From an uncultured Paracoccaceae bacterium (GTDB taxonomy: Bacteria > Pseudomonadota > Alphaproteobacteria > Rhodobacterales > Rhodobacteraceae), in the NCBI GenBank assembly GCA_947497985.1, contig CANMIX010000010.1, forward strand, positions 62,001 through 126,000: a stretch of 64,000 bases of DNA. Direction: 5' to 3'. Numbering within the stretch: the stretch's first letter is position 1; each line of letters opens with the position of its first letter. The notes below the pieces were generated by a model. It saw nothing but the letters and a program-made list of their open reading frames with translations, was not told where the DNA came from and did not search any database. Of the stretch, positions 43,543 to 46,444 are shown in pieces. The translations under genes were made by a program, and so were the position numbers.

Positions 43543-43914
43543 ATGTACAAAACGAAGTTGTCAGTTGTGTTCGGGATGGTGGCTATTGCAGCGACCTTGT
43601 TTGCATGGCGCGGATATCTTGCGATTTTTGGCCTCATGAATGGCAATCAAACCGCTTTCTTGACCTTCCCACTTTCTGTGATTTTACCAGTCATGATGTT
43701 TTCGTTCCTTGCGACGCGACGCAGTATGGCCTCCCAAGAGGGCGTCCTCATGCAACTCGGTGCGATGATACAAATTCTTCTCATTATCGCCTTGCCGCGC
43801 TTTGCAATTTATCTTGCTCTTGGCTTTCCCGTTGTTTTTCTTTTCGTCGAACTCTTTGAAACGAGGATGCCAAACGCGACCAAGACCGCCATTAAGCGAA
43901 TATTGATCGCATGA
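43543..43914 (+). CDS. four-helix membrane protein, unknown, P450 operon
   Basis: A 123-residue hydrophobic protein with about four transmembrane helices (residues roughly 6-28, 38-57, 70-86 and 88-108) and a basic, hydrophilic C-terminus (RMPNATKTAIKRIL). No conserved domain is recognised. Its stop overlaps the start of the next gene by four bases (ATGA at 43911-43914), so it is co-translated with the methyltransferase-like gene and the P450. The ribosome site before the ATG is weak (GAAG). Function unknown; being coupled to a membrane enzyme suggests a subunit or a helper. Confidence 0.7.
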   Translation: MYKTKLSVVFGMVAIAATLFAWRGYLAIFGLMNGNQTAFLTFPLSVILPVMMFSFLATRRSMASQEGVLMQLGAMIQILLIIALPRFAIYLALGFPVVFLFVELFETRMPNATKTAIKRILIA

Positions 43915-45155
43915 TTGATCTATCATTGCCTTTATCGTGGATGCTTGCGCTTCGCTGGCTTCTTCTGCTTGGCCCGGTTTGTCTGGCCTTGGTGATGGTT
44001 CGGGTGCGTCAATTCTCGCAGAGTTCGCAAATCGCAGGGCTATTTGCATTCCTCTACGGTGTTGCCATGGTTTTTGTGTCCCATTCTTTTGCCGTTTGGA
44101 TGGGCTGGTGGCACTATGGCTGGGACGCATTGATGGTGAATGCGTTGCCTGTCGACATTATTCTGGGTGGCGCTTTATTGTTTGGGCCCGGACTGTATTT
44201 TTCATTTCCAAACACACGCCCGCTCATGATCTGCCTTCCCATCATCTTAGGATTGCACGGGACGCTCTTTAGCTCATTGGAGCCGCTTGTCTTTGCTGGT
44301 CCTCATTGGTTTTTAGGTGTGCTGTTTGTCTTTTCAACAGCGCACTTACCAGCGATCTACCTAGCCAAATGGACAGAGACAGACACATATCTCCCGTACC
44401 GCTGCACGCTTTTGGCGATTATGACCGGAGGTATAATTTTTGCGGTTTTGCCGTCACTGATCATGCAGGCCATGGGCGGGGCATGGGACATCTTTGCAAA
44501 ACCTGCTTGGACGATCTGCCTTGCAGGGTTGGCGCTTTCAATTTCATCGCTGATAGGTTTGTCAGCAAATCAATCTCTTTGCCTTCAAGGTAATGGGACA
44601 CCCATCCCGCTTGATCCCACAAAACGTCTCGTGACAACTGGACTTTACGCCTATGTTTCGAACCCCATGCAGTTGTCGGCTGCAATGGGGTGGATCATTT
44701 TAGGGCTGTTCTTACAAAACATATGGATCATGGCGGCGTCATTGATGGCATGGGTTTTCGTCCAAGGAATGGTGCGTTGGCATCATCGACATGATTTGTT
44801 GAAGCGGTTTCCGACAGGTTGGCCTGAGTATAAGCAAAATGTTCCTGAGTGGTTTCCCCGCTGGCGGCCTTGGACAAATGCAACGGCGACGCTGACATTG
44901 TCGAGGGCTTCTCCGCACCATCAATGGATCGCTTCATCGTTGAGGGCTATCGATCACCTAGAAGTACAGTGGTCAGACAAACCGAGCGCTCGGTATAGCA
45001 ACCCTGACAACATTTACTGTTTTCAGGGCTCTTGTGCCATTGCAGCTGCATTGACGCATCTGAACTTTGCGTCTGCTATGCTGGGTCAAGCTTGGCTATT
45101 GATAGCTTTGCCATCTCGTTTTCTGTTTGATCAAATGTTGGGACGAAAGAGATGA
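43911..45155 (+). CDS. membrane protein with isoprenylcysteine-methyltransferase-like and DCC-like parts
   Basis: A 414-residue protein. Residues 1-210 hold five to six transmembrane helices with WWHYGWDALMVNALPVDIILG, faintly like the lycopene-cyclase/carotenoid membrane domain. Residues about 225-325 match the ICMT/PEMT-type membrane methyltransferases: LDPTKRLVTTGLYAYVSNPMQLS, then RWHHRHDLLKRF and YKQNVPEWFPRW. The acidic pair before the usual LxxxFG is changed to HHRHD. Residues 330-414 look like the C-terminal half of a DCC (thiol-disulfide oxidoreductase-like) domain without its CxxC. Coupled by ATGA to both neighbours. Substrate unknown; S-, O- or C-methylation of a lipid is plausible for the family. 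Confidence 0.6.
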   Translation: MIDLSLPLSWMLALRWLLLLGPVCLALVMVRVRQFSQSSQIAGLFAFLYGVAMVFVSHSFAVWMGWWHYGWDALMVNALPVDIILGGALLFGPGLYFSFPNTRPLMICLPIILGLHGTLFSSLEPLVFAGPHWFLGVLFVFSTAHLPAIYLAKWTETDTYLPYRCTLLAIMTGGIIFAVLPSLIMQAMGGAWDIFAKPAWTICLAGLALSISSLIGLSANQSLCLQGNGTPIPLDPTKRLVTTGLYAYVSNPMQLSAAMGWIILGLFLQNIWIMAASLMAWVFVQGMVRWHHRHDLLKRFPTGWPEYKQNVPEWFPRWRPWTNATATLTLSRASPHHQWIASSLRAIDHLEVQWSDKPSARYSNPDNIYCFQGSCAIAAALTHLNFASAMLGQAWLLIALPSRFLFDQMLGRKR

Positions 45156-46444
45156 AGGGACCATCGCCTGCCTTGTTAGGGCTGGATACGCTTTTCAAGA
45201 TCAGACGTGACCAGCTGGGGTTTTACGCCGACATGAAGGCCCAGTTCGGCGACAGTGTACCTCTGCGCCTTGGACCGTACCGATCTTGGCTGTTGTTTCA
45301 CCCCGATCAGATTGAAGTTGTCCTAGCCAGTCAAGCCGACAAGTTCATACGTTTTAAACGGATGATGAACGTCTTGCGCCAATGGAACGGGGAAAGCCTG
45401 TTCATTGCAGAAGGACAAAGCTGGCACAACAGACGCCGCAAAGTGCTTCCCGCTTTTGCTCGCAAGAAGATGCCAGCCTATGAGGCTGTTTTTCAACAGG
45501 TCGCTGAGGACTGGGTCAAGCATCTGTCGGCGCAGGCCGACAGCGAAGGAGATGTGCATCTGGACGCTGATGACATCTTTGCACAAATCGCTTTGGATAT
45601 CGCTTTACGGACTCTGTTTGGTGGTGGGTTTTCCGACGGTATGGACCAAGTTTCTGAACACATCAAAGTTCTCTCCAAAGTGGCGTTCCGGGAATGCGCA
45701 AGTCCGTTGACACTACCCGACTATCTTCCGCTCCCCGGTAAGCGTGAGAAAAAGATCGCGATGGCTTTCATGCGTGATCTGGTCCGCGATCTTGTTGAAG
45801 GCAGGATCAACGGTCCGGTTGGTGACGACCTTCTTCAGGTTCTCATCGAAACCCATGCTGGTGACAAAAAAGAAATTTGTGACGACGCTATGAGCCTTCT
45901 TATCGCAGGGCACGAAACGTCAGGGGCTGCGTTGTCTTGGACATTTGCGCTTTTGGCAGATCATCCTGCGGCACTAGAGAAATGCCAAACCGAAGTCGCT
46001 AGCACGAATGATGTCGCGGAAATGAACTACCTTCGGGCGGTCGTCGATGAAGCACTCCGGCTTTATCCGCCAGGTTATACTTTGTTTCTGCGCCAAGCGA
46101 CAGAAGACGTCGACGTTGCAGGCATCGCAATTAGAAAGGGCGAACTTTTGCAGGTTATTCCTTACATGACCGGTCGCGATTCAAGGTTTTTCGATGAACC
46201 CGACCAGTTTCGTCCAGAACGTTTTCTAACGGAGCCGACTTGGCCGTTCTTTGCCAATATCCCATTCAGCGCAGGGCCACGAGCATGCACCGGACATCAG
46301 TTCGCGTTGAAAGAGGTTTCGATCATCGCCGCCGAATTGCTTCGGTCTTTTCATCCGCGCTTAAATGGTCCCTTTCCGGCCCCAGACCCGAAGTTCTCAT
46401 TGCGACCGCACGATGGGTTGCAAATGGTCTGGAAAAACCGCTGA
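45152..46444 (+). CDS. cytochrome P450
   Basis: A 430-residue heme monooxygenase. Landmarks: C-helix WHNRRRKVLPAF, I-helix AGHETSG near residue 252 for oxygen activation, K-helix ExxR as DEALRLYPP, the PERF box FRPERF, and heme loop FSAGPRACTGHQFAL with the ligand Cys379. Overall it resembles the CYP4/CYP102-like class, including bacterial enzymes that hydroxylate fatty acids or carotenoids, rather than soluble CYP101-type camphor enzymes. It has no fused reductase and no ferredoxin neighbour, so electrons must come from elsewhere. It is last in the three-gene unit (ATGA overlap with the fusion protein). Intact. Confidence 0.93.
   Translation: MKGPSPALLGLDTLFKIRRDQLGFYADMKAQFGDSVPLRLGPYRSWLLFHPDQIEVVLASQADKFIRFKRMMNVLRQWNGESLFIAEGQSWHNRRRKVLPAFARKKMPAYEAVFQQVAEDWVKHLSAQADSEGDVHLDADDIFAQIALDIALRTLFGGGFSDGMDQVSEHIKVLSKVAFRECASPLTLPDYLPLPGKREKKIAMAFMRDLVRDLVEGRINGPVGDDLLQVLIETHAGDKKEICDDAMSLLIAGHETSGAALSWTFALLADHPAALEKCQTEVASTNDVAEMNYLRAVVDEALRLYPPGYTLFLRQATEDVDVAGIAIRKGELLQVIPYMTGRDSRFFDEPDQFRPERFLTEPTWPFFANIPFSAGPRACTGHQFALKEVSIIAAELLRSFHPRLNGPFPAPDPKFSLRPHDGLQMVWKNR

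Follow-up and report, generated by a model that had tools for sequence, protein, structure and literature searches.

Comparative Analysis of a Membrane Protein–P450 Operon

An operon of three overlapping genes, coding for a small membrane protein (gene 1), a larger membrane protein with an ICMT/PEMT-family domain (gene 2) and a cytochrome P450 (gene 3), occupies positions 43543 to 46444 of a 64,000-nucleotide stretch of contig CANMIX010000010.1 from an uncultured Paracoccaceae bacterium, hereafter the window. The three genes form a real unit with a patchy spread, and orthologs of all three occur in the same order in four other genomes, in two bacterial classes. The explanation favoured here, to which about an even chance is given, is that the operon represents a mobile membrane-bound module for the tailoring of a lipophilic compound, with four genes where it is complete and with the P450 as catalyst.

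Organisation of the operon

Gene 1 (43543..43914, + strand) encodes a 123-amino acid membrane protein without Pfam, NCBIfam or PADLOC match, while the 414-amino acid product of gene 2 (43911..45155, + strand) comprises a multi-helix part (residues ~1–215), a PEMT/ICMT-family part (~216–320) and a putative degenerate DCC/thioredoxin-like tail (~321–400). Gene 3 (45152..46444, + strand) encodes a complete cytochrome P450 of 430 amino acids (PF00067, 238.4 bits; cut-off 22.8). The coordinates, the open reading frame (ORF) lengths and the two ATGA overlaps of 4 nt each given in a first-pass annotation of the window proved exact on re-reading. The G+C content of the trio is 50.8 %, against 56.0 % for the whole window. 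Alignment of the five available trio P450s distinguished the motifs AGHETS, EALR and FSAGPRACTG, which we take to be the I-helix, ExxR and heme-cysteine motifs, respectively. Cys379, put forward earlier as the heme ligand of a complete P450, falls within the last of these and is invariant in all five proteins. Among the best PDB profile hits, whose E-values lie close together, are a putative P450 (7wzl), cholesterol 24-hydroxylase, carotene hydroxylases and CYP3A4, so that no substrate class can be read from them. A role in anti-phage defence was considered and rejected, as no PADLOC match was obtained for the unit at E ≤ 1e-1.

Conservation, selection and distribution

A scan of genome contigs with gene 2 identified four further loci, each with all three genes in the same order. 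These belong to Yoonia maritima (L006; 75, 82 and 90 % amino acid identity to the window gene 1, gene 2 and P450 products, respectively), an uncultured Loktanella (L007; 72, 77 and 87 %), Pannonibacter sp. SL95 (L008; 55, 70 and 76 %) and an uncultured member of the Granulosicoccaceae (L009; 33, 38 and 47 %). With the lineage of the Loktanella locus left out, the trio is distributed over the orders Rhodobacterales and Hyphomicrobiales (Alphaproteobacteria) and Chromatiales (Gammaproteobacteria). The ATGA overlap is found at both junctions in the Yoonia, Loktanella and Pannonibacter loci, and at the first junction in the Granulosicoccaceae locus, where the second overlap would be ~20 nt if the P450 starts at the ATG at 9238. 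The conservation of gene order and junction overlaps across the loci excludes a chance arrangement, and the co-inherited, overlapping unit envisaged in the first-pass annotation is thus upheld. Ratios of nonsynonymous to synonymous differences (pN/pS) among the window, Yoonia, Loktanella and Pannonibacter copies (six pairs, the Granulosicoccaceae copy being left out) range from 0.23 to 0.43 for gene 1, 0.17 to 0.28 for gene 2 and 0.09 to 0.20 for the P450, at high synonymous divergence (pS 0.49–0.83). With pN/pS values of 0.09–0.43 over all pairs, the three genes are evidently maintained.

Carriers of the unit are few, although all counts are lower bounds, with only the best few candidates scored per genome (four for the class and phylum, five or six for the family). 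At E ≤ 1e-10, gene 2 matches occur in 4/295 family genomes, those in the own genome and in genome G063 extending over most of the protein, and the remaining two being weak matches (23–28 % identity) around the ICMT domain. Within the genus, gene 2 is found in 1/18 genomes, while at E ≤ 1e-20 it is found in 1/385 genomes of the class and 1/398 of the phylum. In the class to which the Granulosicoccaceae locus belongs, 3/321 genomes have a match at E ≤ 1e-14, one of these being the genome of that locus itself. The P450 likewise has matches in 4/295 family genomes (E ≤ 1e-50), close in the own genome and G063 (48 % identity) and 33 % identical in the other two. The close P450 and gene 2 homologues therefore coincide in the same two of two genomes among the 295 sampled, with one of the copies decayed. 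In this decayed copy (L012, in G063), gene 2 and the P450 lie together, gene 2 being split over frames with a stop and the P450 interrupted by a stop, with no match beyond residue 190; a gene 1-like stretch was discerned by eye, with no gene 1 tblastn match at E ≤ 1. The concern that homologues of the three genes might mostly occur apart, raised in the first-pass annotation, is thus not borne out for the close P450 and gene 2 homologues, and does hold for four distant gene 2 loci which lack a P450 relative nearby. Among viral-contig candidates no relative of gene 2 or gene 1 was confirmed. A plasmid search with the P450 at E ≤ 1e-60 gave no match (no looser search being made). For gene 2, one distant plasmid match, in Tsukamurella, covers 81 % of the protein, and two others are confined to the ICMT domain. 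This patchy, class-crossing pattern is as would be expected of horizontal transfer.

The gene 2 protein and its S-adenosylmethionine site

The gene 2 product had been described as a fusion of a multi-helix membrane domain, an ICMT-like methyltransferase and a DCC-like tail. The joining of a membrane domain to an ICMT/PEMT-family domain stands, with hydrophobic stretches in the N-terminal part and a marginal PF04191 match above the cut-off (26.1 bits; cut-off 25), while PF04140 (12.7 bits; cut-off 24) and NF040696 remain below theirs; the DCC-like tail can be retained only tentatively. The part-wise pN/pS values (four pairs each) are 0.13–0.25 for residues 1–215, 0.09–0.16 for residues 216–320 and 0.32–0.50 for the tail, such that the ICMT-like residues are under the strongest purifying selection within gene 2 and the tail is the least constrained part. 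A core of the form GTxxPxDxxxxLVxxGxYxxxxNPxQ is furthermore kept in the window and eight relatives.

The ICMT-family enzyme RhlM is stated to contact S-adenosylmethionine (SAM) by means of H122 and E162 (PMC11069360). These were taken as equivalent to the histidine of the ICMT RHP motif and a glutamate of the EE motif, a putative mapping of our own, made without the RhlM sequence itself, in which E162 may be either of the two glutamates. The gene 2 proteins were aligned to these motifs through 4a2n, 5v7p and generic bacterial relatives, which places the window SNPMQ opposite RHPxY and WHHRHDLL opposite EExxLL. The RHP histidine is replaced by asparagine in all five trio proteins, and the EE glutamates by histidine and arginine in the window, Yoonia, Loktanella and Pannonibacter proteins and by histidine and serine in that of the Granulosicoccaceae. 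Four generic relatives (L003, L004, L038 and L039) also have asparagine in place of histidine, yet keep the EE pair, and the change of the glutamates is therefore the telling one. The Tsukamurella relative keeps an acidic pair at this position, and in two further distant relatives, L022 and L032, neither EE nor HH is present. As none of the five trio proteins retains the SAM-contact histidine or glutamate, 'methyltransferase' is, as far as can be read from sequence, a family label only, and the activity ascribed to gene 2 in the first-pass annotation is, with these canonical residues substituted, not supported as it stood.

It is unlikely that gene 2 encodes a working SAM-dependent membrane methyltransferase, which would methylate (e.g. 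esterify) a lipid acid oxidised by the P450 in a manner resembling RhlM. The PF04191 match above its curated cut-off, the strong selection on residues 216–320 and the conserved core would all be accommodated by such an enzyme, whereas the loss in the trio of the glutamates that the generic relatives keep, next to that of the RHP histidine, and the sub-threshold PF04140 score argue against it.

For the tail, the structural evidence is somewhat more defined than for the remainder of the protein. Two AlphaFold models built on five-sequence alignments have a mean predicted local distance difference test (pLDDT) score of 46 and 56, with residues 321–380 in one of them reaching 72–84 in a strand-helix-strand order. 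Thioredoxin-type chains appear among the Foldseek rows, none of them significant. Profile comparison (hhalign) of the tail with DCC proteins gave a score of 21.1 (shuffle maximum 14.6; 0/100 shuffles as good) at a probability of only 5 %; 100 column shuffles were made for each comparison, and for unrelated control pairs 9, 41, 34 and 45 shuffles were as good. There is no PF04134 match in the tail at E ≤ 10 in the five trio members, nor in the Tsukamurella relative. Both cysteines of the CxxC are absent from the aligned positions of the five trio proteins (serine and histidine in the window), while one is left in L012 and both in the Tsukamurella protein.

A fourth gene and the distant relatives of gene 2

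The first-pass annotation took the three genes as the whole unit and overlooked a fourth, which encodes a DCC1-like thiol-disulfide oxidoreductase in 3/5 intact trio loci and of which only a remnant is left in the window. In the Yoonia, Loktanella and Pannonibacter loci an intact convergent gene overlaps the end of the P450 gene by 27 nt, its product matching PF04134 at 83–89 bits with the CxxC intact. The window remnant (46424..46659, − strand), which is convergent with the P450 gene and overlaps its end, corresponds to the C-terminal part of this protein in two frames with two internal stops. It shares 58 % identity with residues 127–186 and 67 % with residues 108–128 of the 187-amino acid Yoonia ORF, with nothing matching the first 107 residues, so that the N-terminal part with the CxxC is missing. 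In L009 and L012 no DCC match better than E 0.5 was obtained. The presence of a separate CxxC-bearing DCC gene beside units with a cysteine-less tail would fit replacement in trans.

Four more distant gene 2 homologues were distinguished, three of them (L010, on a Tsukamurella plasmid, L021 and L022) by profile comparison (probability 100 %, E 6.8e-45, 363 columns) and the fourth (L032) by tblastn (E ~1e-22). In each, the gene before the gene 2 relative encodes a membrane-type protein of 306–340 amino acids, for which a hydrophobic N-terminal part was computed in L010, L021 and L022. No relative of the trio P450 was found at E ≤ 1 in the surroundings read for these four loci. A DCC gene lies directly upstream in L021, 1.9 kb away with three genes between in L022, and, as judged by similarity to the L006–L008 proteins, two genes upstream of the membrane-type gene in L032, while in L010 the gene 2 relative itself carries a DCC-like, CxxC-bearing tail, recognised by eye and without Pfam match. 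Of the ten gene 2 loci, eight have DCC in or near them as a gene, a remnant or a domain (window, L006, L007, L008, L010, L021, L022 and L032; not L009 and L012). Gene 1 aligns with the membrane part of the longer partner proteins with a score of 23.9 (shuffle maximum 18.5; 0/100 as good; hhalign probability 10–11 %), and on this basis may be kin to it. Taken together, this suggests that the membrane pair with a DCC protein could be the older core, to which the P450 would be a lineage-specific addition. The clusters in L032 (2168–8554) and L022 (7311–12203) are also similar in that SDR/epimerase, DUF2269, DUF4166 and DCC genes lie beside the membrane-type protein and gene 2 relative, the annotation being based on Pfam for L022 and on inspection by eye and similarity for L032 and a MarR-like first gene.

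These loci also bear on a second alternative, equally improbable, in which gene 1 and gene 2 would serve the P450 and the DCC protein as a non-enzymatic membrane anchor and redox partner, with P450 oxidation, for example in the detoxification of a hydrophobic compound, as the sole chemistry. The loss of the canonical SAM contacts, the cysteine-less tail beside a separate CxxC-bearing DCC gene in three loci, and the patchy distribution are consistent with this. Against it stand the conservation of the ICMT-like domain, which exceeds that of the other parts of gene 2, and the gene 2 relatives that have no counterpart of this P450 in their vicinity.

Terpenoid or carotenoid chemistry, with a gene 2 N-terminal part akin to membrane lycopene or terpene cyclases, is very unlikely. 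It draws on a GWW-(Y/F)...P-x-(D/E) stretch, seen by eye, that the N-terminal part has in common with the L027 protein, in which Lycopene_cyc is below the cut-off; the GWW-Y...PxD stretch is presumably a cyclase-type motif. An eight-sequence N-terminal profile gave an hhalign probability of 3 %, and also 3 % against L027 alone, where the suspected stretch was the one picked. A nine-sequence profile, compared with five proteins from a PF18916 search (four above the cut-off and L027 below), gave a probability of 1 %, with 1/100 shuffles as good and a different segment aligned, and the lycopene-cyclase/CruF-like assignment was rejected. The own genome moreover has no PF18916 or PF04240 match, and no significant fold match was obtained. 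As a separate observation, L024 (329–1794) has an ICMT-like gene matching 4a2n, immediately followed downstream by a gene with a Lycopene_cyc domain.

That the genes are neighbours by chance, or form a functionless relic in decay, has a negligible probability, for while the fourth gene is broken in the window and one family genome holds a decayed copy, all three genes are open and under purifying selection, and their order is kept across two classes.

Mobile-type surroundings

The unit adjoins a relic of a plasmid-type tyrosine recombinase/integrase gene (42876..43441, 566 bp, no strand assigned) on its upstream side, in agreement with the mobile-type surroundings proposed for it. The relic shares 77.6 % DNA identity with a plasmid gene of Ruegeria sp. 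TM1040, with Phaeobacter copies nearly as close, and contains no ORF of more than 132 amino acids; 83 plasmid records match some part of 42400–43560. The earlier picture of a unit alone among decayed integrase relics thus holds upstream, while no such relic could be confirmed downstream. Two identical tRNA-Asn genes (47641–47716 and 47951–48026), 310 bp apart, lie 1.2 and 1.5 kb downstream of the unit, and no further copy of the tRNA-Asn end, as expected of an att site, occurs in the window. In Yoonia maritima, the unit is found between 48-bp direct repeats (782–829 and 16380–16427) that correspond to the end of a tRNA-Cys gene and are 15.6 kb apart. The stretch between them also holds two HipA-like genes and a DUF6880 gene, an integrase gene lies just outside it, and the unit appears to lie on an island in this strain.

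Further features were observed around the units. A second repeat of the Yoonia locus (97–215 nt, 63–100 % alike; 7437–7533, 11148–11244, 12148–12244, 13005–13101 and 14704–14918) lies on either side of the four-gene unit, beyond which it returns every 0.9–1.8 kb between single ORFs in the manner of a cassette array. ABC exporter and HlyD-like genes, recognised by eye, lie upstream of the Pannonibacter unit (4013–7038), and a complete PF00144 serine beta-lactamase-family protein is encoded at 41489–42373 of the window, before the recombinase relic.

Proposed function

Within the tailoring module favoured here, the gene 1 product would assemble with the membrane part of the gene 2 protein into a complex binding an amphiphilic or lipophilic molecule in the inner membrane, and the P450 would dock on this complex to oxidise the bound molecule. 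The ICMT-like domain might then methylate this molecule by means of an altered SAM site, which is a guess, or might only hold the ligand, while the DCC thiol-disulfide protein, separate or fused, would keep a partner reduced. The P450 is the one component with a nameable chemistry. The proposal builds on the intact trio in five loci and its decayed counterpart in L012, the coincidence of the close P450 and gene 2 in two family genomes, the purifying selection, the complete P450 motifs, the hydrophobic stretches and PEMT-family match of gene 2, the recurrent DCC association, and the membrane-type partners of the distant gene 2 relatives, of which the one in L010 has a sub-threshold match to a lipid-binding-type family. 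With two membrane proteins in the unit, kinship to the ICMT family and RhlM as a precedent, a lipophilic substrate is suggested; the terpenoid, carotenoid or fatty acyl named in the first-pass annotation is likewise conjectural. Mobile elements probably account for the transfer of the module.

Several observations weigh against this explanation. Besides the substituted RHP and EE residues, the membrane parts are modelled poorly, with residues 1–215 forming seven long helices and one short helix in a low-confidence model; the ICMT-like part mostly has pLDDT values below 50 and a Foldseek row for 5v7p at E 1.9 (prob 0.13), and no Foldseek match to the models was obtained at E ≤ 0.001. Since the window copy of the DCC gene is broken and none was found in the Granulosicoccaceae locus, this gene is not needed everywhere. 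There is no ferredoxin or reductase gene among the genes of the unit (the rest of the genome not being searched), and no gene that would fix the substrate was recognised adjoining it. The lipid-binding-type Polyketide_cyc2 domain (SRPBCC type; PF10604) in the remainder of the Tsukamurella partner protein scores below the cut-off (24.3 bits; cut-off 27.4), and the L021 and L022 partners, which are linked to it by alignment only (23–35 % identity), have no SRPBCC-type match at E ≤ 1.

There is a slim chance that the operon represents a new membrane oxidation machine, spread between classes on islands, in which an ICMT-fold protein without canonical SAM binding, aided by a small membrane protein and a DCC redox protein, would present the substrate to a dedicated P450. 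This compact mobile operon links a divergent ICMT-class protein with a P450 and a thiol redox partner. As a single operon with few carrier genomes, and with no copy found among the 17 other genomes examined from its genus, it provides a simple genetic handle on what such proteins act on.

Comparison with known systems

Searches of the open-licence literature listed no paper with this gene combination in its title or abstract. The closest characterised protein is to be sought among the ICMT/PEMT methyltransferases, which include RhlM of Paraburkholderia kirstenboschensis. This membrane enzyme of the ICMT family acts on rhamnolipids and is referred to as the first bacterial representative to be characterised from a widespread class of integral membrane methyltransferases (PMC11069360). 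Gene 2 resembles these enzymes in its PF04191 match and in the GTxxP...LVxxGxYxxxxNP core of the generic bacterial relatives, but differs in the additional N-terminal multi-helix part of ~215 residues, the degenerate DCC-like tail, the replaced SAM-contact histidine and glutamate and the overlapping P450 gene. Gene 3 carries the core motifs of cytochrome P450s (PF00067), and gene 4 of the Yoonia, Loktanella and Pannonibacter loci is a DCC1-like (PF04134) gene with the CxxC kept, whereas the window has only its remnant and the gene 2 tail has neither CxxC nor PF04134 match. The operon also resembles the uncharacterised pair found in three genomes of the class of the Granulosicoccaceae locus and on the Tsukamurella plasmid, in which a membrane-type protein is encoded before the gene 2 homologue and a DCC gene or domain occurs in or near each locus. 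It is distinguished from this pair by its P450, of which the pair has no relative nearby, and by the shorter gene 1 product, the partner in the pair being longer, with an extra C-terminal part, and at most weakly akin to gene 1.

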